Below, one piece after another: positions 1,237-19,706 of a DNA stretch of 21,143 bases (the first letter of the stretch is position 1; the number at the start of each line of letters is the position of its first letter). The position numbers were made by a program, and so were the translations under genes. The notes under the pieces are model-generated. The model did not search any database, had not been told where the DNA came from, and was given only the letters and a program-made list of their open reading frames with translations. The DNA comes from a virus. Location of the stretch: IMG/VR virus record IMGVR_UViG_3300036780_000054, positions 1 to 21,143 of that record; one strand, given 5' to 3'.

Positions 1237-1974
1237 TCAGCGGATGTATGAGCCAGTCAAGTAGCTCCAGCCGCCGCCGTACTTGTTGCCGGTGATTGCG
1301 CCGTCGCAGAGGAGCACGGGCGCCGGCGCGTTGAGGGACTGGATATACATCTTCGATTCCTTGGCCATGGCGAGCACGTCCTCACGGACTTCCTTCTGCC
1401 ACTCCGGAGCGAGTCGCACGGCGAGGTTGTAGCGGATCGCGTCCTCATAGCCCGGCGGGAACGATAGCGAGTCGTCGAGCTGTCCGGAGGTGAAATTGCC
1501 CGTCAGCGCCTGCCAGGTATAGAGAATCAGCGGAATAGTGATGGTCGGAATCGGCCACAAACTGAGGTTCGCGTTGGGGTACGCGTTGTCGTTGTAGATG
1601 CCGGTGGGAATCGGGCTGGTGATGTTCTTAATCCGCAAGTCTTCCCACTCGCGTGTGGTCATCATCCCGAGGGGGAGCTCCGGGTCATACTGGCCGTTTG
1701 GTGTGTACAGCACCGCGGCGCGGTCAATGCGGATCGGCCGCGGCGCGTCGAAGTCCGGCGCGCCAGGCCCGATCTGATAGGTCTGTTGGTTCGCGACCAG
1801 GTTATAGGTGTTGCGCTGAATGTCGAAGATATTTAGCCGGTCGATCGACCAGCTTGAAATCATGGCATTCAGCACCACGAGCGAATCGGTGATGTCGTCG
1901 ACGTTCGGCCCTTGCCCTTCGCGCAGCACGCCGACAAGACGAAAGCTCGAGCGCACCAGATCGCGCAGGGTCAC
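1237..1974 (-). CDS. gp4-like head-tail connector / tail accessory factor, paralogue 3
   Basis: A 245-aa protein, third of three tandem paralogues. The N-terminal helical part (DLVRSSFRLVGVL, then NAMISSWSIDRLNIF) resembles the start of P22 gp4, the protein that forms the ring under the portal. A beta-rich middle follows (QQTYQIGPGAP, RPIRIDRAAVL, IYNDNAYPNANLSLWPIP), then the helical PPGYEDAIRYNLAVRLAPEW segment. The first codon is GTG, overlapping the previous stop as GTGA, so translation is probably coupled to paralogue 2. The C-terminal tail (about residues 217-245, CDGAITGNKYGGG and onward) is unlike the other two copies and may bind the gp10-like protein encoded next. The family call rests on pattern and gene order, not on a search. 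Confidence 0.72.
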   Translation of the reverse strand: MTLRDLVRSSFRLVGVLREGQGPNVDDITDSLVVLNAMISSWSIDRLNIFDIQRNTYNLVANQQTYQIGPGAPDFDAPRPIRIDRAAVLYTPNGQYDPELPLGMMTTREWEDLRIKNITSPIPTGIYNDNAYPNANLSLWPIPTITIPLILYTWQALTGNFTSGQLDDSLSFPPGYEDAIRYNLAVRLAPEWQKEVREDVLAMAKESKMYIQSLNAPAPVLLCDGAITGNKYGGGWSYLTGSYIR

Positions 1975-2678
1975 TGCTTGTTGCCTTTCGTGCCCTGGTT
2001 CTCAGCGGCGGTCTGGTTGGCAATGTCGTCTTGGGGAATCATCCGCGCGTTGAGCGCTTCAATTGCGGCCTTGGAGCCTTCCGCGATCGTCAGGACGGCC
2101 GCGGGAATTTGAAGTCCGAACGCGGCGCCGATTTCGACGGCCAGGTTATAGCTGAGGGCGCGGAGATAGCCCGGGGGCATCGCGAGAGTGTCGCCCAAGG
2201 TCGCGAATTGAGTGAATGGCGTCCAGGTGTAAATCTCGAGGTGTGTGTTTGTCGCCGGCGTCGGGAACAGGTAGATGGTCGCGAGCGGGAACGCCTGATC
2301 GTAATAGAGCTTTTTGGGGATGATCGACTGATCCCCGTAGGTCTCTTGAGAGGCCCACTCGTTCTGTCCGATGATTTTCATCGGGAACCGAGCCGAGGCG
2401 CCTTCGACGGTCGCGACAATGTTCGCGGATTCGATCGCGGTGGGCCGCGCCGCGTTGAACACGCCGCCCGTGCCGATGGTGTAGCTCTCGGTTCCCGCGG
2501 TGAGCGCGTACGTCGCGGCCTGCACGGTGAAAACGGTGAGCCGCTTCGTGCTCCACGAATCGAGCATGTTATTCGCGAGGCCCATTACGACGCCGGATTC
2601 AGCGGCGCCGGCGGACCGGCCCGCGCCAAGGCGGCCGACAAGAGTGAGGCTTTGGTTAACGAGGTCTTGAACTGTCAT
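1971..2678 (-). CDS. gp4-like head-tail connector / tail accessory factor, paralogue 2
   Basis: A 235-aa protein with the same layout as its neighbours: N-terminal helices (DLVNQSLTLVGRLGAG, NNMLDSWSTKRLTVF), a beta-rich middle (ESYTIGTGGVFNAARP, KKLYYDQAFPLATIYLFP) and MPPGYLRALSYNLAVEIGAA. The ATG at 2678 is preceded by AAGGA at good spacing, and the gene starts 9 bases after paralogue 1 stops. By comparison with P22-type virions it should act in the connector ring beneath the portal, although three copies would allow different rings or a mixed ring. The C-terminus is polar and Q/N-rich. Confidence 0.72.
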   Translation of the reverse strand: MTVQDLVNQSLTLVGRLGAGRSAGAAESGVVMGLANNMLDSWSTKRLTVFTVQAATYALTAGTESYTIGTGGVFNAARPTAIESANIVATVEGASARFPMKIIGQNEWASQETYGDQSIIPKKLYYDQAFPLATIYLFPTPATNTHLEIYTWTPFTQFATLGDTLAMPPGYLRALSYNLAVEIGAAFGLQIPAAVLTIAEGSKAAIEALNARMIPQDDIANQTAAENQGTKGNKQ

Positions 2679-2687
2679 GGAGGTTCC

Positions 2688-3404
2688 TTACTGTTGGGGC
2701 TGAACGGGCGCCGGCGCCGGCGGCAAATCGGAGGGCTCTTTGCCCATGGCGTTGGAGGTGTTGAGCGCGATCACTTCCGCCTTAGCCTTTGCGGCGGCAT
2801 CGGCGAGGCCCGCCGCGGCGGCCTGCGCCTGGCTGCCGTATTCGGGCGCCAGGTCGATCGCGAGCGCGTATACGAGCGCCCGGAAGTAGGGCGGCGGCAT
2901 TGAGAACGTGTCGGTGATCGCCGAGAACTGCTGGAGCTGCTGCCAGAGATAAAGATCGAGCGTTGGGGCGCCGCCGGTGCCGCTGGGGATCGGCCAGATA
3001 TTGAGGTTGGCGAGCGGAAAGGCGTTGTCGTTGTACAGCACTTTCGGCAGGCGGCCGGTGAGGGATTTTTCCTCGATCTCGGCCCAGTCCTTCGCGCCCA
3101 CGATTTTGATCTCGTGGCGCAACGTGTCGGGCGTGATGATGCCGGCTTTCTCGATCTTCAGCGGGCGCGAGGTATTGAAGTTGCCGCCGGTGCCGATGGT
3201 GTAGGTCTGCTGGGTCGCGACTAACGAGCCCTGGAAATTGACGATCTGGTAGATGGTGGCTTGTTCAGCGCTCCACGCTTCCATCAGCGCGTTGACGGAC
3301 TGCAGCGCGTCGGTGTTCTCGTCGCTATTGGGAGTTTCCCCGGCCGCGAGCACGCCGATTTTACGAAGGGCTGAATTGATGAGGTCAGAGCAAAGGTAAG
3401 ACAT
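2688..3404 (-). CDS. gp4-like head-tail connector / tail accessory factor, paralogue 1
   Basis: A 238-aa protein, first of the tandem trio. The N-terminal DLINSALRKIGVL is the segment most like P22 gp4 (which has a similar L-V-x-A-A-L-R-K-L-G-V run). It continues with NALMEAWSAEQATIY, a beta-rich middle (QQTYTIGTGGNFNTSRP, KVLYNDNAFPLANLNIWP) and MPPPYFRALVYALAIDLAPEYG. The C-terminus is Ala-rich and helical, then ends in a Pro/Gln-rich tail. GGAG lies upstream of the ATG at 3404. P22 gp4 also has peptidoglycan hydrolase activity; I see no specific reason to assign that here. Confidence 0.74.
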   Translation of the reverse strand: MSYLCSDLINSALRKIGVLAAGETPNSDENTDALQSVNALMEAWSAEQATIYQIVNFQGSLVATQQTYTIGTGGNFNTSRPLKIEKAGIITPDTLRHEIKIVGAKDWAEIEEKSLTGRLPKVLYNDNAFPLANLNIWPIPSGTGGAPTLDLYLWQQLQQFSAITDTFSMPPPYFRALVYALAIDLAPEYGSQAQAAAAGLADAAAKAKAEVIALNTSNAMGKEPSDLPPAPAPVQPQQ

Positions 3405-3454: not shown

Positions 3455-3709
3455 TTACGCGCCCGCGGGCCAGACGCCGACGTGCGCGGCCCAGAGTTCA
3501 GGGTCAAGAGTGGACTGATACTCTCTCACCAGGCCGACGACGGCGCATACATCCTCAACAGGCTTTGGCCAGGGCATCCGCCCGCCACGCCAGAGCCATG
3601 AAATAACTCCAGTCGCCGCGATCGGCCTGCCGGGGTGATTCGCCGCCGCTTCCTCGCGCGCCTTCGCTTTCAGGTAACGCGCCAGGCGCTTTTCAGAAGC
3701 TGCAGACAT
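3455..3709 (-). CDS. Small protein of unknown function (84 aa) between secreted-protein gene and connector genes
   Basis: I do not recognise this protein. The N-terminal 25 residues are basic and helical (RLARYLKAKAREEAAA), followed by a Trp-rich segment (VISWLWRGGRMPWPKP) and an acidic helical end. No signal peptide is present, unlike the gene just before it. Its ATG shares one base with the previous stop (TAATG at 3707-3711), so it is probably translated by coupling. A 50-base gap with a Shine-Dalgarno for the connector gene follows. It could be a small cytoplasmic assembly factor. Confidence 0.65.
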   Translation of the reverse strand: MSAASEKRLARYLKAKAREEAAANHPGRPIAATGVISWLWRGGRMPWPKPVEDVCAVVGLVREYQSTLDPELWAAHVGVWPAGA

Positions 3710-4200
3710 TAGTGGCGATACAAGACTAAGAGCACGTCGCCAGGTTGCGGAATCGACGCAGTGTTAAAGGTGATGCTCGAGCCGGAAAGCACGTAGTCAG
3801 CAGAGGCGCCGGCCGTCTGCAGCAGCCCGTTTTTGAAAATCTGGAGACTCGCCGCGGGATTCGGGGCAGCTACCAGGGTGAACGTCGCGTTAACGCCGTC
3901 GATCGCGCCGCCGGGTACTTCCCCATCTACGAAGACAGGCGCCGGCGCCGGCGTGGCCAGCAGGCGCAAGGTCGGGGGTGTGGTGGTTGTGTCGAGCTTG
4001 AACGCCGAAGCGTCAATCTGCGCGCAAATCGTTTGTGTCGAGACGGAGCCGGCGCCCGGGAGCTTAACCGGCGAGCCCATCACCACCACAATCGCGTTTA
4101 CGCCGGCGGGGCATATCTTGACCTGCGCGGCGTCCAGGGTCGTTGCGTTCTGCGCGAACAACGAAACAGCAAAAAGCGAGAGCGAGAGGATTTTGAGCAT
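3709..4200 (-). CDS. Secreted phage structural-like protein (163 aa)
   Basis: The N-terminus (MLKILSLSLFAVSLFAQ) is a predicted Sec signal peptide with cleavage likely after the Ala before Gln. The middle carries an APAPA linker (about residues 83-88). The C-terminal part (about residues 92-163, with DGVNATFTLVAAPNPA, LQIFKNGLLQTAG, YVLSGSSITF and PGDVLLVLYRH) looks like a beta-domain I have seen at the ends of phage and prophage virion proteins. The mature part contains two cysteines, which would allow one disulfide after export. It follows the beta-helix gene by six bases and couples to the next gene. Its exact role is unknown. Confidence 0.65.
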   Translation of the reverse strand: MLKILSLSLFAVSLFAQNATTLDAAQVKICPAGVNAIVVVMGSPVKLPGAGSVSTQTICAQIDASAFKLDTTTTPPTLRLLATPAPAPVFVDGEVPGGAIDGVNATFTLVAAPNPAASLQIFKNGLLQTAGASADYVLSGSSITFNTASIPQPGDVLLVLYRH

Positions 4201-4206
4201 AGAATT

Positions 4207-5973
4207 TTACCGGAGAATGTTTCCGCCGCGGAAGGTCAACGCGGGAGTCGAGGAAGTGGTCAGGTAGGAAGCAGCGCCAAGGTCGACGGCTGCGCCGTGG
4301 CGTGCAAGATTGCCTTGGTAATCAATTAGACCGAGGTCGATGGCTTCAATCCAGGGGTCAACGCCAGTCCCGATCGCGACTGATCCTGGCGAGAGGTCAA
4401 GATAGTGCATCGAGATGCCGCTGGGTAAAAACCCTCCTGTCGGAGGTGAAAACCCCAAAAAATTCAGGAACCCGGCATCAGAAACGAGCCCGTAATTAAT
4501 TCCGCTCAGTGTCTCGAAGCCGAGAGCCTGCCATCCTGCTAAAGAAGTCGTGTTTACGTAAGAGCTGCCTGTATCGTTCGATATTAGGAGCGAGCCGGAA
4601 GAAGCATCGTAGAGATTCTGGAGAATAACGGGAGAGCCAAGATGAGTGGGGTTCGATGCGGTATTAGCATGATAGATCGCGATGCCTCCCGTGACTTTGA
4701 AAATGTTATCGAGTATCTGGACATTCAGGCTGGAAGTGCCGCCGGCCCAAGTTTCCCAATTGATCGCTGAAGGTACGCCGACGGCAGCGCTGTCTATATA
4801 AATTGAATTGTTGAATATCGGAACTCCATTCAACGCCCCGCCGAGCCTGATGGCCCCCTGCTCAGACGTGCCCCCAGTATTGTTCCCGCGCACATCGTTG
4901 TAACTGACGTTGTGGTGAATGCGTGCATTTGAAGTGAATCCGCCGTACGACCCAACCTGGATGGCTGAGCCGACGTTGTTATAGCTAAGGTTGTATGCGA
5001 CATCTCCGTTTTGCGTGTCCTGGTCGATATCAATTGCCGACCCGTCAAAATGCGTCGAGCATCGTGTGTTGGCGATCTCATTATTGGAGATCCTGAAGTT
5101 TCTGCTGCTGGCGAGACCTATGGCGGTCGATCCTCCGAACGTGAGTCCGGACTGTGCCCCGCCAAAGCCGGCGATGCCAGAGAGATAGTTTCGCTCGATC
5201 GTAATGCCGGTGACGTTGCCGACGTCGATCCCTCCTGCTTCGGTCTTTCCCGAACCATGGACACCTCCCGTTCCGGACTGTGGATCTCCCGGAATGTTGG
5301 TCACGGTGTTGTACCCGATATAGACGTTCGTCGTCTGATTCACCGGACCTCCAGCATTCGCGTTGTACCCGAGAACATTGATTCCGAACGACAGGTCGTT
5401 CGTCACTGAATTATTGGAGATCCGGACGCCGCTGTATCCGAGCGTGCTTGCGGAAGCGGCATAGCCCACCACAATCCCGTACCAAAAGCCGGATACCGAA
5501 TTGCCGGAGATATCGATGCTGCGCAGTTGGTTTCCACTTGTACGAGTAGAAAGGATGAATATGCCCGTTCCTCCGTTCAGCACGGTGATGTTCGGTTCAG
5601 TCCCGGTCCAGCCGGATCCGACCAAGGCGAGGTTGGAAACCTTAAGGAACTCGCAGTTGGTACAGTCAAGCCCGTCTCCGGTTCCCCCGTTAATGGTTGC
5701 CTTTCCCGTTCCGTAGCTGCCCACGGTGATCGGCGCGGCGGCTGATCCAGTTACCGAAAGGGAAATCGTGCCACTAAAAGTGTCTCCACCGTGGAACAAG
5801 ATGGAATCCCCGGCGCTATAAGCGCCCGCATTGACCTTCGCGATTGTCTGCCAGGGGACTGAGGAAGAAGTGCCGTTATTGGCGTCCGCTCCGGAATTCG
5901 AAACATAATACGTCGCAGCCAAAACTGGCTGGCAAGCCAACAGCAGAACTAAAAACTTCAGGATGTTTCCCAT
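4207..5973 (-). CDS. Secreted right-handed parallel beta-helix protein, candidate tailspike/receptor-binding or glycan-acting protein
   Basis: A 588-aa protein with an N-terminal export signal (hydrophobic ILKFLVLLLACQPVLAA). LLAC could also be read as a weak lipobox. The mature N-terminus (TYYVSNSGADANNGTSSS, then WQTIAKVNAG) is typical of secreted right-handed beta-helix proteins. Many short repeated coils with stacked Asn and Ile/Val follow (for example GVRISNNSVTN, GITIERNYLSG, NFRISNNEIAN, ARIHHNVSYNDV, VQILDNIF) up to about residue 420, then a non-repetitive C-terminal part. No catalytic residues can be assigned by eye. The gene is poorer in GC than its neighbours (a 60-base line at 4981 is 47% GC against 77% at 15841), suggesting separate acquisition. 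In a phage a beta-helix usually means a tailspike, but the signal peptide is unexpected for that role. Confidence 0.7.
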   Translation of the reverse strand: MGNILKFLVLLLACQPVLAATYYVSNSGADANNGTSSSVPWQTIAKVNAGAYSAGDSILFHGGDTFSGTISLSVTGSAAAPITVGSYGTGKATINGGTGDGLDCTNCEFLKVSNLALVGSGWTGTEPNITVLNGGTGIFILSTRTSGNQLRSIDISGNSVSGFWYGIVVGYAASASTLGYSGVRISNNSVTNDLSFGINVLGYNANAGGPVNQTTNVYIGYNTVTNIPGDPQSGTGGVHGSGKTEAGGIDVGNVTGITIERNYLSGIAGFGGAQSGLTFGGSTAIGLASSRNFRISNNEIANTRCSTHFDGSAIDIDQDTQNGDVAYNLSYNNVGSAIQVGSYGGFTSNARIHHNVSYNDVRGNNTGGTSEQGAIRLGGALNGVPIFNNSIYIDSAAVGVPSAINWETWAGGTSSLNVQILDNIFKVTGGIAIYHANTASNPTHLGSPVILQNLYDASSGSLLISNDTGSSYVNTTSLAGWQALGFETLSGINYGLVSDAGFLNFLGFSPPTGGFLPSGISMHYLDLSPGSVAIGTGVDPWIEAIDLGLIDYQGNLARHGAAVDLGAASYLTTSSTPALTFRGGNILR

Positions 5974-5981
5974 TTGATGTT

Positions 5982-6953
5982 TTACTGCGCGTACAGATCG
6001 AATACTGAACCAGCGACAAAGTTGCTGCCCCCAGAAAGCTGGACAAGGATGCTGTTAATTGCGGCTGTGCTATTCCAAAATCCGCTAAATGTGAACACTC
6101 GAATTCCTCCAGCGCCTCCTGTGGCCGATACTCCGCCAGACGTACCAACTGCCGTTTTCAAAAACGTCGTGCCAGAATAATTTGGAATATCCATGATGCT
6201 GCTGCCTGCTGCGTTTGCCAGAGCAGTGCCGCAGGACACATCACCAATCGCCAGCCCTGACGAGGAGCTCACGCTCTGTCCGGCGCTAAGGGAGGCCACA
6301 GACGCCACAAGGTATTGGCGAGAATAATTCGCTCCGGTGTCGGAATTGAACTGCAGGTATACGCCGTCATCGGTTTGCGATGCGCTGCACCTCCCGGAGA
6401 TCACCAGCCGAAGATTGCGATAAGTCGATGGGATAGACGAGAAGGTGACGCTCGATGCTGGTGAGGCTAACACCTGCTCCGAGAGGAGGACATACCCGCC
6501 AGGTGTCGGTTGCATGTCGGTTACAGTTCCAGCGCTATTCACCACACTGAAGTGATTCGAGTTGGCGCTGTTACAGAACGGCGTCACGTAGCCCGAGGAA
6601 GGAAGCGGGCTTGGCGTAGTGCCACATAAATAGTCGATCGCCCCAGCGCCGCCGCCCGCGGGCGCAATCGTCAGGGGCCCGGTGATCGTCGGAGAGTTCG
6701 CGGTAACCGGTTGCCCGCTGCTGTTCGATCCAAGCAAAGGAGCCGACGCGGGAACCGCTGCACCGTTGACCTTGACGACGCCACCAGTAGCGCTGAGATC
6801 GCCAACCGCGCCAACCGCGCCAGTCTGCCCGAATACGCTCGTTACGGCGCCGCCGCTCGAGCTCGAGCCGCCGCCATTCGAGGAAGGCACGCCGGTAACG
6901 CTTTGCGCCTGCAGCGCGACGGCCGCTATCAAAAACAAAAGCGCGTTTCTCAT
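5982..6953 (-). CDS. Secreted tail-fibre-like protein (323 aa)
   Basis: I place the start at the ATG at 6953, which overlaps the previous stop as ATGA and begins a signal peptide (MRNALLFLIAAVALQAQ). A Ser/Gly linker follows, then VTSVFGQTGAVGAVGDLSA (about residues 43-61), the type of segment found in phage tail-fibre shafts. The C-terminal half (about residues 150-323; VLLSEQVLASPASSVTFSSI, YRNLRLVISGRC, GVYLQFNSDTGANYSRQYL) resembles a beta-sandwich tip domain seen in fibre proteins. The mature part has four cysteines. It sits directly before the beta-helix gene, so the two may form one receptor-binding module. Confidence 0.68.
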   Translation of the reverse strand: MRNALLFLIAAVALQAQSVTGVPSSNGGGSSSSGGAVTSVFGQTGAVGAVGDLSATGGVVKVNGAAVPASAPLLGSNSSGQPVTANSPTITGPLTIAPAGGGAGAIDYLCGTTPSPLPSSGYVTPFCNSANSNHFSVVNSAGTVTDMQPTPGGYVLLSEQVLASPASSVTFSSIPSTYRNLRLVISGRCSASQTDDGVYLQFNSDTGANYSRQYLVASVASLSAGQSVSSSSGLAIGDVSCGTALANAAGSSIMDIPNYSGTTFLKTAVGTSGGVSATGGAGGIRVFTFSGFWNSTAAINSILVQLSGGSNFVAGSVFDLYAQ

Positions 6954-7282
6954 TGAGCTGTACCGAACCACGCGATGCTCGAACCGGTGCTTGCCGCGAC
7001 GACATACACGGCGCCGGCCTTACCCTGAACAGGAACGCAGACCGACTCACTCGCCGCGAGCGGGTAGCCCGTCGACGTCGTCACGGCCGAATTGCCGACA
7101 TACACCGTTGCGCTATTCGCAGAGGGAGCCTTGAAGCACGCAACGGCGAGGCCGGCGGGATAGGCGACAGCCGCGGCGCTTGCCGTGACCGCTTGCTGAC
7201 CGGTCACGCTGAACGTGCCGACCTGCGCCAGGCCGACGACAGCCAGGGCGACAAACAAAAAGAGAGCGAGTCTGGTTGTCAC
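6950..7282 (-). CDS. Small secreted protein (110 aa), possible decoration or fibre-associated protein
   Basis: The GTG start overlaps the preceding stop (GTGA at 7279-7282). The N-terminus is a signal peptide (MTTRLALFLFVALAVVGLAQ). The mature part is a beta-rich domain of about 90 residues with VTASAAAVAYPAGLAVACF, VYVGNSAVTTSTGYPLAA, SVCVPVQ and VYVVAASTGSSIAWFGTA. This pattern, with 'YVGN..VTTSTGYPL' followed by 'VYVV', matches small beta-domains I recall in phage structural modules, where it is usually of unknown function. Two cysteines remain after cleavage. It is coupled to genes on both sides. Confidence 0.65.
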   Translation of the reverse strand: MTTRLALFLFVALAVVGLAQVGTFSVTGQQAVTASAAAVAYPAGLAVACFKAPSANSATVYVGNSAVTTSTGYPLAASESVCVPVQGKAGAVYVVAASTGSSIAWFGTAQ

Positions 7283-7452
7283 GCTTCCCCCTTTTTGCGC
7301 TTCGCCGGCGCCGCGGGAGCTTTCGGGGCATCGGTCCAGAACGGCCCGAGTGCGCGCTCTTCAGTCGCGTTGTGCACCATGACGGCGCCCCCGTTCGGGG
7401 CGTACTTCATCTTGGGAAATTCGGGCTTGTGATCGAGGTTATAGAGGGACAT
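7279..7452 (-). CDS. Small cytoplasmic protein of unknown function (57 aa)
   Basis: I translated this frame by hand. The ATG at 7452 has AAGGA seven bases upstream, and the stop overlaps the next start as GTGA, so this is very likely a real gene. The product begins MSLYNLDHKPEFPKMKY, continues with GGAVMVHNATEERALGPFW and ends in an Ala/Pro/Lys tail (PAAPAKRKKGEA). It has no signal peptide or membrane segment. It is the first gene after the terminator-like hairpin. Short proteins with this kind of N-terminus and a basic tail occur among phage head genes, but I cannot assign a function. Confidence 0.7.
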   Translation of the reverse strand: MSLYNLDHKPEFPKMKYAPNGGAVMVHNATEERALGPFWTDAPKAPAAPAKRKKGEA

Positions 7453-7473
7453 CGGAGAATCCTTGAAGAAAAT

Positions 7474-7503
7474 GGGCGAACCACTCAGATGAGTGGCTCG
7501 CCC
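7474..7503 (-). terminator. Strong rho-independent terminator-like hairpin inside the late region
   Basis: On the minus-strand transcript a 13-pair stem (GGGCGAGCCACTC pairing with GAGTGGTTCGCCC, including one G-U pair) closes a four-base loop and is followed by ATTTTCTT. It lies 6 bases after the stop of the 236-aa secreted protein and 21 bases before the next start. On the plus strand the same stem has one A-C mismatch, which fits selection acting on the minus-strand RNA. It would reduce expression of the fibre and connector genes downstream unless antitermination occurs. Confidence 0.75.
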
Positions 7504-7509
7504 GATTGG

Positions 7510-8220
7510 TTAATACGAGGGGACAAACTTGCTGTTGGTGTCGTCCCAGGTCCAGCAAAGTAGCTTATTCACGACGGCCGTGGACGCGATCGCGATATTG
7601 GTTGCGTTCGTGGTCGTGAACGCGCCGTCAGGAATGGCGCAGAATCCACCGGACTGGAAGCCAACCGGGACGTTAAAACCGGTGATGGCCGCGGTACCGG
7701 TGATATGGAACAACGGGCCGCTGGGAGTGATGAGACCAGCCGCGGAAGCGACGGCCGCACTTACCCGCGCGGGCGAATCGGTGTTGCCCCATCCGGGAAC
7801 CCAGGTGCCAGTGACGCTCGAGCACAGGAATTCGCGCCCGGTGATCACGTTGACGTGAGGCAGCGCTTTAGTCTGCGATGCAGTGCAGGTGCCCGTAGGG
7901 TCGTTGTCGCTGAACCAGTCGGGGGAGCCGGCGAGCACCATAGCGCCCGAGGCGTGCCCCACAGCTTTCGTGGTGTACGTGCCGCGGGTGACGGTCAAAG
8001 CGGTACCGGAGACGCCGAGAACGAGCATAGCTTCGCGATCGACAAACAGCATGGTACCGGCGGAAATGTTGGTTGCCGAGGCAACGATGAGAGCCTGCGA
8101 GCCGGCGGGGATCGCGGACGATAGGGAGGTTTGCGTCAGGGTATAGACCTGCGCGTTTGCGGGCACAAGGGCCAATGCGAGGAGAACGAAGCAGAGGACG
8201 GAAGTCTTTTTGAAATTCAT
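7510..8220 (-). CDS. Secreted structural-like protein (236 aa) directly after the coat gene
   Basis: The N-terminus has a lysine-containing start, a hydrophobic core and a classic ANA-Q cleavage site (VPANAQ, residues 19-24). The mature part begins with VYTLTQTSLSSAIPAG. A beta-rich segment follows (INSAG-like ISAGTMLFVDREAMLV and VTRGTYTTKAVGHASGA) of the kind found in virion proteins. The C-terminal domain (FHITGTAAITGFNVPVGF, CAIPDGAFTTTNATNIAIA and a terminal VPSY) resembles a repeated beta-domain common in phage structural proteins. Four cysteines lie in the mature part. The gene follows coat after a 64-base gap with a hairpin and is itself followed by a strong terminator, so it is probably expressed with coat at high level. 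It could be a head decoration protein, but export would then need explaining. Confidence 0.68.
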   Translation of the reverse strand: MNFKKTSVLCFVLLALALVPANAQVYTLTQTSLSSAIPAGSQALIVASATNISAGTMLFVDREAMLVLGVSGTALTVTRGTYTTKAVGHASGAMVLAGSPDWFSDNDPTGTCTASQTKALPHVNVITGREFLCSSVTGTWVPGWGNTDSPARVSAAVASAAGLITPSGPLFHITGTAAITGFNVPVGFQSGGFCAIPDGAFTTTNATNIAIASTAVVNKLLCWTWDDTNSKFVPSY

Positions 8221-8284: not shown

Positions 8285-9535
8285 CTAGTTGCTCTGCATG
8301 CGCACGGCGAGCTGTCCGTAGGGCACTCCGAACGCATACAGCACGTCGAAGCGGTTCACGTACAGGTTTTGCGTGCCGATATATTGGCGCACAAAGCGGA
8401 GCTGAATACCGGTATCCGGATCCGTCGCTTCATAAGCCATTTCGGTGCTACCCTTCGGGACTTCCTGGCTGACACCAGCGAAAGTGAATGCATCGGGGTG
8501 ATAACCGAGGCACTGCGCCGAGGTGGTGCCGGCGATCGCGCCCTGTCCGGCCGCGGCGGTACCGAAAACGGAAATCAGCGCCGTATCGGCGGGGATGCTG
8601 TCAACGGTGGCGAAAGCGAGAGGAGCGGGGACGATGGACGGGAAAATCGGGATGGTGGCGTTGCCGCTGCCATCGCTATAGACGTCCGCGGTCACGACGA
8701 AATGACGCAATCCGCCATAGACGGCGCGGGTCATCGGGTTGACGGCATTCACGCCGGCGATTTCGATGATGTCGCCCTTGTTGAGGCGCTTTCCGACTGC
8801 AGCGGTCCAACCGTTGGTGATCAGGCTCGAGCCGGTCTGGTTGGCCCCGTGCACTGCGGGTGCGCCGCCCAGCGGGCCGATGGTGTGAATCCAGGTGTTC
8901 TGGGATTCGTACCAGTCCCAACCGAGGGTCTTTTTGGCCAGAACGCCCTTTTCAAACTGATCCGAGATTTTCACTTGCGGATTGAACAATCCGGAGAGTG
9001 CAGGAACCAGCGTCGCGTTCGTATTCGGCGAGATGATGAGGCGCTTGGCCCCGCCGTCATCCGGGGCGCCCTCATTCTTGAGGTAGGCCGCGGCCTGCAG
9101 TGGGATATTTGCCGTAGTCGGGGCGGTGTTCAGCGTTCCGACGAAGTTCGCAACGCCCTGGTAGGCGAGCTGCATACAATCGCGCTCAACGTTGTTGACG
9201 AGCTGCGCCATTGCGGGCTTCAGGACGCGCTTTTCCGTGTCGTCGATGTTCAACGTCCAGTCAGTGCTGGGCAGATTGATGTCGACGCCCTGCAGCGGCC
9301 GAATAACCACCGGATAGGAGCTTTCGACGTAGGCTTCGGGGCTGTAGCCTTCGCCAGTGCGGCCGACATACCGCGCGGGGTATCGGACGTTGATGGTGTT
9401 TCCGGACTTCTGACCCGGTTTTGCGAACAGGTTTTCGTTGTCGCGATTGACGCCCTTCAAGAAGACGAGCTGGTTTTTGAGAATGCGCAAGGCACGGTTG
9501 GTGAATACCTGCCAAGGCTGATAAACGTTTGCCAT
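8285..9535 (-). CDS. Major capsid (coat) protein, P22 gp5-like
   Basis: A 416-aa protein, close to the 430 aa of P22 coat. It has the N-terminus typical of this family (MANVYQPWQVFTNRALRIL, then LKNQLVFLKGVNRD), NTINVRYPARYVGRTGE, DINLPSTDWTLNIDD, a central segment with RLIISPNTNATLVPALSGLF and, near the C-terminus, LRFVRQYIGTQNLYVNRFDVLYAFGV in pieces. It follows scaffold, as in P22. The ATG at 9535 has AAGGA ten bases upstream. It should assemble around the scaffold into the procapsid shell through the HK97 fold. No long N-terminal delta domain or protease gene is seen, matching a scaffold-dependent, non-cleaved coat. Confidence 0.88.
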   Translation of the reverse strand: MANVYQPWQVFTNRALRILKNQLVFLKGVNRDNENLFAKPGQKSGNTINVRYPARYVGRTGEGYSPEAYVESSYPVVIRPLQGVDINLPSTDWTLNIDDTEKRVLKPAMAQLVNNVERDCMQLAYQGVANFVGTLNTAPTTANIPLQAAAYLKNEGAPDDGGAKRLIISPNTNATLVPALSGLFNPQVKISDQFEKGVLAKKTLGWDWYESQNTWIHTIGPLGGAPAVHGANQTGSSLITNGWTAAVGKRLNKGDIIEIAGVNAVNPMTRAVYGGLRHFVVTADVYSDGSGNATIPIFPSIVPAPLAFATVDSIPADTALISVFGTAAAGQGAIAGTTSAQCLGYHPDAFTFAGVSQEVPKGSTEMAYEATDPDTGIQLRFVRQYIGTQNLYVNRFDVLYAFGVPYGQLAVRMQSN

Positions 9536-16234: not shown

Positions 16235-16419
16235 TTTGCGTCGGAAGCGAGAATCAGACCAACCCCCGCGGCGATACTGCTTATTTGTGCAGTACGTTCG
16301 GGCCAGAAGGCCGCGGCGATCGCGGCCAGGCCTGCGAGCGTCGACTTGGGGTTACGGCGTAAAAACGCGATAGCGCGCTCGAGCAGTGACGCCGGCGACG
16401 GGAAAGAATCACACCTCAT
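16231..16419 (-). CDS. Holin-like small membrane protein (62 aa)
   Basis: After a short N-terminal part (residues 1-21) comes RRNPKSTLAGLAAIAAAFWP (about 21-40) and a C-terminal hydrophobic stretch (ISSIAAGVGLILASDAK). The NPK-T/S-T-x-AG-x-AAI ... I-A-A/S-G-x-GLI-L-A-x-DA pattern matches small phage proteins usually called holin or holin-like, with two hydrophobic segments. Its position directly before the anchored protein and endolysin supports a lysis role. Both ends overlap neighbours by ATGA. Confidence 0.65.
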   Translation of the reverse strand: MRCDSFPSPASLLERAIAFLRRNPKSTLAGLAAIAAAFWPERTAQISSIAAGVGLILASDAK

Positions 16420-17000
16420 TTGCTGGCGCCCGGTTTCCAGACGATCCCCATTTCAACGATGGGATTCCAGCCGCCGAGGCTCGAGACGTACAGCATCCGG
16501 ACCGGCACCATAAACGCAAGTGAGGCCGTCAGCTGCCGGACGTAAGTAGCCGTGACGGCGCCGGAAATGCCAGACGTTGCCGAGCCGGCCGCGGAGGCCT
16601 GCGAGAACGAAAAGCCCGCATCGGCGCCCAGCAACAGCATGTTTTTCGAGTCCTGGTGGATGACGCGGTGCACTCCCTCGCGAACCGAGGTCGTGAACAC
16701 ATAGCCGCTCTTTCCGTTGATGACCGTCTTAACCGGGAAGACATCGGCCGTCGTTGACTCATACAGCCCGAGGGATTGAGAAAACGGAATCACCGCGCTA
16801 CCCCAGAGGTTTGCGCCGGCGAATTGGTTGTAAGCAGCGCCGCCGGCGACGTAGGCCGGAAGCGTGATCGAATTGAGAGCGGCGGCCGTGGCCGCGGCGG
16901 CCGTCGACGGCGCCGAGCTGGTCGACGCGGGAGCCGGCGCCGGCGTCGTCTGCGCGAATGCGATCGCCGAGGCGATCAGGAAAGCGAGAGTCAGTCTCAT
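16416..17000 (-). CDS. Outer-membrane beta-barrel-like protein with signal peptide (194 aa)
   Basis: The ATG at 17000 gives a signal peptide (MRLTLAFLIASAIAFAQ) followed by a Pro/Ala/Thr linker (APAPA encoded by a 12-bp palindrome at 16933-16944). From about residue 45, alternating hydrophobic strands appear (LPAYVAGGAAYNQFAG, WGSAVIPFSQSLGLYEST, GYVFTTSVREGVHRVI, LLLGADAGFSFS, ATYVRQLTASLAFMVPVR, NPIVEMGIVW), ending near an aromatic residue as barrels do. It looks like an eight-stranded outer-membrane barrel. It is the first of the lysis-cassette genes and may alter the cell surface or help late envelope steps. The start shares one base with the previous stop (TAATG). A longer upstream frame (to 17207) is an overlap artefact with the 49-aa gene and NusG. 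Confidence 0.65.
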   Translation of the reverse strand: MRLTLAFLIASAIAFAQTTPAPAPASTSSAPSTAAAATAAALNSITLPAYVAGGAAYNQFAGANLWGSAVIPFSQSLGLYESTTADVFPVKTVINGKSGYVFTTSVREGVHRVIHQDSKNMLLLGADAGFSFSQASAAGSATSGISGAVTATYVRQLTASLAFMVPVRMLYVSSLGGWNPIVEMGIVWKPGASK

Positions 17001-17149
17001 TAGACCTTGGGGGCCTTCGTCTTCTTGCTCTTGGGAGCCTGCATGACGCTGGCGAGCGTCAGCTTTGGCGCGGTGAGACGCATGCCGCCCGGCGGCGTGA
17101 GCTTGGGCGTAAGAGGGGTTCGAACCGTTGGAGCGTTTGCTTTGGCCAT
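17000..17149 (-). CDS. Small basic protein (49 aa) between NusG-like gene and barrel protein
   Basis: I chose the ATG at 17149, two bases after the NusG-like stop, instead of a longer frame to 17323 that would overlap NusG. The product begins MAKANAPTVRTPLTPK, contains a partly repeated LTPKLTP ... LTAPKLTLA pattern and ends in a Lys-rich tail (APKSKKTKAPKV). It has no membrane segment. The sequence is too short and low in complexity to classify; a nucleic-acid-binding partner of NusG is one possibility. It couples to the barrel gene by TAATG. Confidence 0.6.
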   Translation of the reverse strand: MAKANAPTVRTPLTPKLTPPGGMRLTAPKLTLASVMQAPKSKKTKAPKV

Positions 17150-17151
17150 TG

Positions 17152-17709
17152 TCAGTTTTTCTTGGGCAAATCGTCTGCGCCGACTTCGACATTGACCGCG
17201 CCGCCAATCATCGGAACACGCACCACCAGGCGCGTCGCGCCTTTGGTGCGCACCACGACTCCGGACACGCCGGCGAGCGGTCCGGATTCGATGGTGACGG
17301 TTTCCCCTGCGACATATGCGCACGGAGAGGCCATGAGGCCAGATGCCAGCACATCGCGAACGTTGGCAATATCGGCATCCGAAACTTCAATTGGGTCGAT
17401 CGAGGTTGGCAAAATTTGAACTACTCCGGGGACGCGCAGCGCATCAATGATCTGGGCGCGATCGCAACGGACAAAAATGTAACCGGGGAACAGCGGCCGG
17501 ACAGTGGTTTTCTCACGATCGGTCCATCGCACGCGTTCGCGCCAGGTCGGTAAAAACGATTCAATTCCGTGGCCGGTAAGGAATGCTTCAACGCGAAACT
17601 CTTGATTGGAGCGGAGCCGCAAAGCCCACCACGTGACGGAGACGGCGCCGAAAACGTAAGGAGGGGACGCTTCCGCCATGTCGGTCACATTGGGTGAACT
17701 ATGCGGCAT
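17152..17709 (-). CDS. NusG/RfaH-family transcription elongation factor (candidate late antiterminator)
   Basis: A 185-aa protein with an N-terminal NGN domain (about residues 26-122): WWALRLRSNQEF, FLPTWRERVRW and the hallmark RPLFPGYIFVRCD near residue 71-83. A linker and a C-terminal KOW-type segment follow (GETVTIESGPLAGVSGVVV, about residues 135-153, and VRVPMIGGAVNVEV). This is the architecture of NusG and its specialised paralogues RfaH and UpxY/LoaP, which bind RNA polymerase and suppress pausing or termination. Placement as the last gene before lysis and morphogenesis suggests it serves that operon. The ATG at 17709 lies in a hairpin arm; an alternative ATG at 17679 would give 175 aa and keeps the whole NGN domain. 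Confidence 0.85.
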   Translation of the reverse strand: MPHSSPNVTDMAEASPPYVFGAVSVTWWALRLRSNQEFRVEAFLTGHGIESFLPTWRERVRWTDREKTTVRPLFPGYIFVRCDRAQIIDALRVPGVVQILPTSIDPIEVSDADIANVRDVLASGLMASPCAYVAGETVTIESGPLAGVSGVVVRTKGATRLVVRVPMIGGAVNVEVGADDLPKKN

Positions 17710-18774: not shown

Positions 18775-19122
18775 TTACGCTGCCTTGGGCTGATCGTTGG
18801 ACAGGGGCGGGGACGTGAAAGGCGGCGGATTCATCAACAGCAGCATAGCCTGGCGCAGCTCATCGGCGGTAAACGCGTGAGTGGCGAGGATCGTACAGAG
18901 CTGGTCGAAAGGGGAAACTTGGGGCGGGTTGGCAAGGCCAGACCGAAAAGCAAACGCGGCGAGACCGGCCCGGCCGTCGACGCGCAGCTTAGCGTACAGC
19001 CGCGAGCTGTAGACCTTCACGGTATTCGGGCTGATGTTCAGCTCCGAAGCAATCTGTTTTGGACCTTTGCCCTCGCCGGCTGCCAGCGCGATTTGCCTCT
19101 CGCGGGGGGTGAGCCGTGTCAT
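18775..19122 (-). CDS. Stand-alone LuxR/GerE-type helix-turn-helix regulator (115 aa)
   Basis: From the ATG at 19122 the protein opens directly with the GerE domain: LTPRERQIALAAGEGKGPKQ (residues 4-23), then IASELNISPNTVKVYSSRLY (24-43) and AKLRVDGRAGLAAFAFRSGL (44-63). The recognition helix is SPNTVKVY. The remaining 50 residues are helical then Pro-rich, with no receiver or autoinducer domain, so activity is probably set by amount or partner binding. The start overlaps the sigma factor stop as ATGA (19119-19122), so the two are made together. A longer frame to 19284 would only overlap sigma. It probably binds DNA near promoters used by the coupled sigma factor. Confidence 0.85.
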   Translation of the reverse strand: MTRLTPRERQIALAAGEGKGPKQIASELNISPNTVKVYSSRLYAKLRVDGRAGLAAFAFRSGLANPPQVSPFDQLCTILATHAFTADELRQAMLLLMNPPPFTSPPLSNDQPKAA

Positions 19123-19706
19123 GCAGCCTCCCGCAGGCGGTCGCGCAACGTCCGAATTGCCGTCGAATGGGCCTTGAAGGCCATGTTTCGCGTGATGCCG
19201 AGCATTTCGGCGACGGTCGGCAGGTCTGGCAGGGCAGGGGAGTAGTAAAGGTCGATTACCGAGGCCTGGAGCGGCGTCAGGCACGCGGTGATGTGGGCGC
19301 GGAGCTGGGCGAACCGGCGGCCGAGGTCGATGCGTTCTTCGGTCTCGGAAAGAGCTTTCTGGGCCGGGAACTCAATCACGTTATCGAGCGGCGGCATGGT
19401 CTGTTCGGCGAACTTGCTGCGCCGAAACGTGTCTTTAATGGCGCCGGCGATCGCGGCGCGGGCATAGGCGGAAAACGGGGTTCCCTCGTTTTCGCTCGGC
19501 CTGTAGCGCGTGGCAGCGCGGGTCAGAGCGAAATTGCCGACAGCAATCAAATCATCAAGGTCAAAAGAGGGGGGGAGTTTACGGTGAATTCGCCGTGCGA
19601 TGGGGGGCACGAGCGATAAGTGATCTACAACTAAGGCATCCCGCCTGGCGAGTACTTTTGCGCGATGGGCCCCTGTTGAGATGCACACCGGCGCAGTGTT
19701 CATCAT
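19119..19706 (-). CDS. Phage-encoded sigma-70 family RNA polymerase sigma factor
   Basis: A 195-aa protein with sigma region 2 at about residues 26-105: LVVDHLSLVPPIARRIHRKL, then FDLDDLIAVGNFALTRAATR and GTPFSAYARAAIAGAIKDTF, which include the core-binding and -10 recognition parts. Region 4 follows near residues 140-194 (LTPLQASVIDLYYSPALPD, TVAEMLGITRNMAFKAHSTA, RTLRDRLREA). There is no room for a full region 3, as in small alternative sigma factors of the FliA/SigB relatives. It would bring host RNA polymerase to phage promoters. The first two codons are both ATG (19706 or 19703); GAAGTGG lies just upstream. The gene is preceded by an AT-rich operator-like region. Confidence 0.88.
   Translation of the reverse strand: MMNTAPVCISTGAHRAKVLARRDALVVDHLSLVPPIARRIHRKLPPSFDLDDLIAVGNFALTRAATRYRPSENEGTPFSAYARAAIAGAIKDTFRRSKFAEQTMPPLDNVIEFPAQKALSETEERIDLGRRFAQLRAHITACLTPLQASVIDLYYSPALPDLPTVAEMLGITRNMAFKAHSTAIRTLRDRLREAA

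Follow-up and report, generated by a model that had tools for sequence, protein, structure and literature searches.

Assembly of tailed-phage virions is generally assumed to take place in the cytoplasm. The described phages closest to the locus studied here, a seven-gene cassette in IMG/VR virus record IMGVR_UViG_3300036780_000054 (21,143 nucleotides; a linear fragment of a virus, analysed as the entire record and called the window below), are P22-like podoviruses such as Xanthomonas phage PBR31, Pseudomonas phage PAE2 and Rhodoferax phage P26218. These share with the window the order portal, scaffold, coat, gp4-like adaptor and gp10-like gene, and one to several small genes after the coat gene are normal in them, as in the window. 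They differ in that hardly any genes of their structural regions (2/287) bear export signals, whereas five of the seven cassette products begin with predicted Sec signals. Inoviruses do export their coat proteins through Sec before assembly, but they assemble in the membrane and are extruded without lysis, whereas the window phage is tailed, carries signals only on parts of exterior type and presumably fills its heads in the cytoplasm. Exported accessory proteins are likewise known from phages, among them spanins, signal-anchor-release (SAR) endolysins and exclusion lipoproteins. T4 antiholin RI (PMC8385771) is another accessory protein with an export signal. Such proteins serve lysis or exclusion, whereas the window phage appears to export several large fibre-, spike- and decoration-like proteins together. 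The kinds of protein are familiar; what is new is the export of the whole set. Our search of the open-access literature, outside which most subscription papers and preprints lie, returned exported lysis proteins and filamentous phages and no tailed phage with Sec-exported fibres, and within that scope the statement of an earlier note on this DNA that it knew of no described precedent still stands.

That note, made from the sequence alone, had also proposed that the 236-, 110-, 323-, 588- and 163-residue products start with Sec-type signals. We scored signals with a rule-based scheme of our own (basic n-region, hydrophobic core of 8-14 residues, AxA-type site), calibrated on 41 annotated proteins in 50 kb of Escherichia coli K-12. 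At a threshold of 6.0 all signal-bearing proteins of the calibration set were recovered (9/9), and the only false positives were two polytopic membrane proteins, with none among soluble cytoplasmic proteins. By this scorer all five window products have a basic n-region, a hydrophobic h-region and an AxA-type site, with scores of 8.07 (236 residues), 7.58 (the 329/323-residue product), 7.08 (588 residues), 6.09 (110 residues) and, for the weakest, 5.41 (163 residues); there was one false positive in the window, the terminase small subunit (6.94). Because just two of the 287 genes in the control P22-like loci reach the threshold, both of them doubtful, four or five signals in seven consecutive genes are far beyond chance. 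Among loci chosen for a relative of the first cassette protein, 79 of 587 genes reach it, an excess that is partly by construction because the group was selected on that protein. Inspected by eye for a lipobox, four of the five products have no cysteine at +1, and the 588-residue product has a poor but possible one (LLAC at 11-14), so that lipoprotein processing at C14 is possible. We consider export of the set proteins to be well supported by the sequences and very probable.

The seven open reading frames (ORFs) lie on the minus strand, their ends mostly overlapping or nearly touching, with a P22-type coat gene on one side and gp4-like adaptor genes on the other, where the earlier note had placed them. 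They are transcribed in the order 236-57-110-323-588-163-84, so the two signal-less members (57 and 84 residues), contrary to the earlier note, do not frame the set. The first gene after the coat, c236 (7510-8220), encodes a Sec signal, MNFKKTSVLCFVLLALALVPANA/QVYTL (the slash marks the predicted cleavage site), and a beta-rich mature domain with four cysteines. The 57-residue product (7279-7452) lacks a signal and contains a motif, FPKMKYAPNGGAVMVHNATEERALGPFWTDAP, common to genes near c236 in loci L021 and L023. The 110-residue product (6950-7282) has the signal ...VVGLA/QVGTF and two mature cysteines, and its C-terminal part matches phrog_30212 (function unknown, 5.7e-5). The 323-residue product (ATG start; 5982-6953) has the signal MRNALLFLIAAVALQA/QSVTG, four mature cysteines and a low-complexity, fibre-like N-terminal part; a search for its relatives returned only the near twin described below, and the 110-residue protein likewise gave none that were informative. 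The 588-residue product, c588 (4207-5973), has the signal MGNILKFLVLLLACQPVLA/ATYYV ahead of a predicted right-handed beta-helix. The 163-residue product (3709-4200; MLKILSLSLFAVSLFA/QNATT; two mature cysteines) ends in a domain frequent in phage fibres (VDGEVPGGAIDGVNATFTL...), and its weak signal call is backed by a relative in another phage, 44% identical, whose signal is clear (MKLILLAAFAALGVA/QT) and in which both cysteines recur. The last member, an 84-residue ORF (3455-3709), lacks a signal, and a search for its relatives found none. Pfam and PHROGs were uninformative for most of these proteins.

Scans with c236 and with an alignment of its family identified 57 viral loci and two loci in metagenome-assembled genomes (MAGs), the family being known from uncultured soil phages. 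Most loci with a visible coat gene have c236 directly downstream of it, starting within about 100 bases of its end. A signal is present in 36 of the 37 examined members with complete starts (36 non-redundant); the cleavage site was taken as the first [AGS]Q, and the count of mature N-terminal glutamines over 36 members is thus partly by construction. The mature proteins of a 33-row alignment are 40-64% identical to that of the window. In addition, contigs 3300036818_000022 and 3300036818_000159 of another record set, which overlap the window and are near-identical to it (the near twin), keep the seven-gene set with 99.7-100% protein identity in the members compared. The concern that the genes might be a one-off error absent from all relatives is therefore answered, and the near twin and the 36 homologues rule out chance or a gene-calling error. 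The term cassette itself fits in part: c236 immediately after the coat is the conserved core, but the other genes vary between phages and signal-bearing genes also occur elsewhere.

The cysteines of the c236 family are paired. Mature cysteine counts are even (2, 4, 6 or 8) in 33/33 aligned members, and alignment columns 158 and 190 both hold cysteine in every one, the pair C89-C110 of the window protein being invariant across the family. Columns 42 and 93 co-occur in 11 members, 260 and 294 in eight and 38 and 94 in four, never singly in any of these cases, and a cysteine at column 248 is always accompanied by one at 257. The P values for these pairs are nominal, the rows being related, and the absence of unpaired cases is independent of them. 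As read from the alignment, this pairing is a disulphide signature, unexpected for proteins kept in the reducing cytoplasm, and export is therefore probably real. A wider comparison, in our group A, gives 1.94% cysteine and 54 even against 7 odd counts for signal-bearing proteins, and 0.78% and 94 against 118 for the others. The only signal-less homologue nested in the signal-bearing clade, L067 (8605-9360), sits on a long branch, has neither signal nor cysteine and, having lost or never had both, serves as a natural control. A separate, distant clade of homologues is signal-less with 0-2 cysteines, and in L071, L076-L078 and L081 such homologues begin 4-10 bases after the coat gene, which indicates that this slot can hold the same kind of protein in signal-less and signal-bearing forms.

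Structure was predicted for c236 and c588. The model of mature c236 (predicted local distance difference test score, pLDDT, 94.8) consists almost entirely of beta structure. Many phage fibre proteins resemble its N-terminal module (120 BFVD matches with expect values up to 0.001, mostly partial); weaker matches are a VP1 phage capsid chain and an AP22 tailspike, and a profile search adds a phage minor tail protein (4.7e-5). Matches of the model to ATP synthase were discarded as short partial beta-domain overlaps. We infer that c236 is a decoration- or head-fibre-like protein. In the AlphaFold model of c588 the right-handed beta-helix core is reliable and the C-terminal 125 residues are not. 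Its nearest Foldseek matches are GH136 and PL6 beta-helix enzymes, followed more weakly by the Dettilon, CBA120 and Sf6 tailspikes; residues 19-101, directly after the signal, match the start of GH136 enzymes, with strands from residue 2 of the mature model.

The same trait is found in cultured phages. Tunturi_1 and Tunturi_2 (PP887698 and PP885685) are cultured, plaque-forming podoviruses of Acidobacteriota, described in a paper whose text does not mention signal peptides (PMC11924767). Tunturi_2, which infects Tunturiibacter psychrotolerans, encodes five signal-bearing products in one block, gp12 (1190 residues), gp13 (tail fiber), gp14 (pectin lyase), gp16 (149 residues) and gp17 (virion structural protein), and Tunturi_1 has the same five-product block, annotations across the two comprising tail fibre, tail spike/pectin lyase and virion structural protein. 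As in the window, the signal-bearing products are cysteine-rich, and here they follow the head genes: the mature parts in Tunturi_2 contain 2.07% cysteine versus 0.49% in its other structural genes (20, 10, 20, 1 and 34 cysteines, in the order given). The two phages differ from the window in their 63-kb genome and in a portal and coat for which BLASTP detected no relation to those of the window, which suggests an independent origin or spread of the trait. Rows of fibre-like genes with signals also occur in IMG/VR contigs L146, L153, L154 and L157; the hosts of L146 and L154, considered among Bacteroidota phages, are merely guessed, and the broader idea that every Bacteroidota phage does so is unsupported, the Flavobacterium immuto tail spikes having no signals. 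A signal-bearing fibre in L029 (Peptidase_S74, 7.6e-13; PHROG tail fibre, 3.9e-21) ends in an S74 intramolecular chaperone domain. Signals, their conservation, paired cysteines and recurrence in unrelated phages are thus features of the sequences themselves.

With somewhat more belief than doubt, we favour the reading that the cassette encodes exterior virion-type proteins that are exported by Sec, oxidised in the periplasm and joined to virions at lysis; cleavage, oxidation and, above all, attachment we infer. The decoration or head-fibre protein c236, the fibre-like proteins and the beta-helix spike would be made with cleavable Sec signals and pass to the periplasm, where signal peptidase I would cut them, leaving an N-terminal glutamine in most cases, and where they would fold and form disulphide bonds. 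Meanwhile, heads bearing portal and adaptors would be filled in the cytoplasm as usual. Once lysis proteins opened the envelope the two pools would mix, and the exported proteins would bind finished particles from outside. Attachment to virions is preferred because in Tunturi_1 and Tunturi_2 the signals fall precisely on the large fibre and spike candidates, because a fibre of S74 type has a signal as well, and because the P22 tailspike is added last and its addition is possible in extracts. Whether the same holds more widely, such that some tailed phages of several unrelated lineages, notably on Acidobacteriota, build virions in two compartments, with DNA-filled heads in the cytoplasm and Sec-exported, disulphide-bonded spikes, fibres and capsid decorations joined to them only at lysis, so that oxidative folding unavailable in the cytoplasm serves receptor binding and the capsid exterior, is in our judgement evenly balanced.

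Several observations weigh against attachment at lysis. The best structural matches of c588 are secreted bacterial enzymes rather than tailspikes, and its mature cysteine count is odd (3). It shares its beta-helix body with P22-type tailspikes, but a separate head-binding domain before the helix, looked for in the model and its matches, was not evident. The near twin encodes a signal-less collagen-like (GXX repeat) fibre of 212 residues directly after the gp10-like gene (L128:6962-7600), and L082 combines one signal-bearing protein with signal-less fibre-like proteins, so export is not required for every fibre. Tunturi_3 and Tunturi_4, also phages of Acidobacteriota, have no signal-bearing fibres, which rules out that every phage of this host does so. 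Finally, c236 and its homologues might act in the periplasm or at the surface and simply lie in the late operon.

The last point leads to the main rival, namely that export is real but the proteins do not belong to the virion and instead act on the cell, infected or lysogenic, by coating or modifying it: by blocking receptors against superinfection, by digesting or binding exopolysaccharide through c588, or as adhesins or decoys. The late-operon position, implying high expression before lysis, would suit such a role, as would the likeness of c588 to secreted GH136 and PL6 enzymes, the signal-bearing outer-membrane-barrel-like proteins encoded by the window and L127, the strong variation of the set among phages and the integrated state of the L082 prophage. 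We nevertheless regard this rival as the less likely reading, because a virion protein is indicated by the fibre-module fold and by the c236 homologues that lack a signal yet occupy the slot after coat, because Tunturi_1, Tunturi_2 and other phages carry signals on the large fibre and spike genes themselves, and because S74 chaperone domains are characteristic of fibres in virions. Where the earlier note had left surface modification and post-lysis attachment unranked, attachment thus appears to fit better, with surface roles as its chief competitor. The note's underlying proposal of exported fibre- or decoration-like proteins gains support from the sequences compared, in which the trait is recurrent and conserved and so is neither an assembly error nor chance.

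An improbable alternative is that the hydrophobic N-termini are uncleaved assembly elements, such as docking peptides or membrane-facing tips, kept in the virion by proteins that stay cytoplasmic. Virion proteins may have hydrophobic N-terminal peptides, and cleavage here is predicted only; yet these N-termini have full n/h/c structure with AxA-type sites, the unrelated proteins that carry them share no docking sequence, strict cysteine pairing and cysteine enrichment are concentrated in signal-bearing proteins, and L067 lacks signal and cysteines together. Scarcely probable, too, is recent capture of host genes for secreted proteins whose signals are gene-transfer leftovers without a phage role, since, despite the enzyme-like fold of c588, the signals carried by two or more S74 loci of Acidobacteriota genomes and the frequency of glutamine among predicted mature N-termini in a small Acidobacteriota sample, the signal is kept in 36 members of a post-coat phage family, at roughly 40-64% identity to the window protein, and phages that share no detectable common portal show the trait again.

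In many soil phages, selection appears to preserve the export signals of exterior-type proteins together with their paired cysteines. Should the proteins join virions, this would be a second assembly route with a different folding chemistry, a new kind of route if confirmed, with relevance to phage display, to receptor-binding proteins generally and to genome annotation, in which the fibres of soil phages could be mistaken for secreted host proteins. If they do not, these phages would secrete a whole surface-active set before lysis.

The host of the window phage is likely a member of the Acidobacteriota, judging by relationship. In a contig of a Bryobacterales MAG, the relative L082 is integrated as a prophage between cellular genes, among them those for an ADOP-family permease (8.6e-275) and a histidine kinase resembling CckA. 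In a small Acidobacteriota sample glutamine was the commonest predicted mature N-terminal residue (6/24). Peptidase_S74 matches in 247 Acidobacteriota genomes were dropped as candidate prophage fibres, several genomes having 10-15 copies and at least two checked loci looking host-secreted; G193 and G183 encode 11-15 such proteins, and the two loci checked (one in G193) carry export signals, a possible sign of exchange between the fibres of phages and the surface proteins of their hosts.

The signal-bearing set is not closed. A sixth such ORF outside the cassette (16416-17006, minus strand; about 196 residues; MRLTLAFLIASAIAFA/QTTPA) looks by eye like a small outer-membrane beta-barrel, with no Pfam match, and two further ones follow the gp10-like gene in a near-identical contig. 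L020 has extra signal-bearing genes, both in the terminase-portal interval and downstream of the gp10-like gene; in the same phage the former interval holds a run of about six (L127:3985-7159), one of which (L127:6512-7159) is again outer-membrane-barrel-like. A second recurrent signal-bearing, cysteine-rich protein (about 280-315 residues) occupies the portal-scaffold interval of many relatives (L021:3513-4346, L043:3188, L051:6630, L053:6896).

On the minus strand the window runs from regulators through a probable lysis region, terminase, portal (P22_portal, 3.3e-137, over the Pfam cut-off), scaffold (phrog_8865) and coat (8285-9535; P22_CoatProtein, 3.2e-27, over cut-off) to the seven-gene set, three adaptors and the start of a gp10-like gene. 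The adaptors are tandem paralogues (1237-3404, minus strand; the first at 2688-3404), each matching phrog_12985, whereas P22 has a single gp4; they also match phrog_637 (head-tail adaptor Ad3) and PF24175 SU10_adaptor (2.4e-8), with PF11650 P22_Tail-4 at 0.014, below cut-off. A tyrosine recombinase-like gene in a near-twin contig (L129:10237-11160) suggests that the near-twin phage may be temperate. A further window gene (17152-17709, minus strand) codes for a NusG paralogue that belongs to the UpxY antiterminators (NF033644, above cut-off) and may control the long late operon, and near it lie a sigma-70-like gene (19119-19706) and a LuxR-type helix-turn-helix gene (18775-19284).

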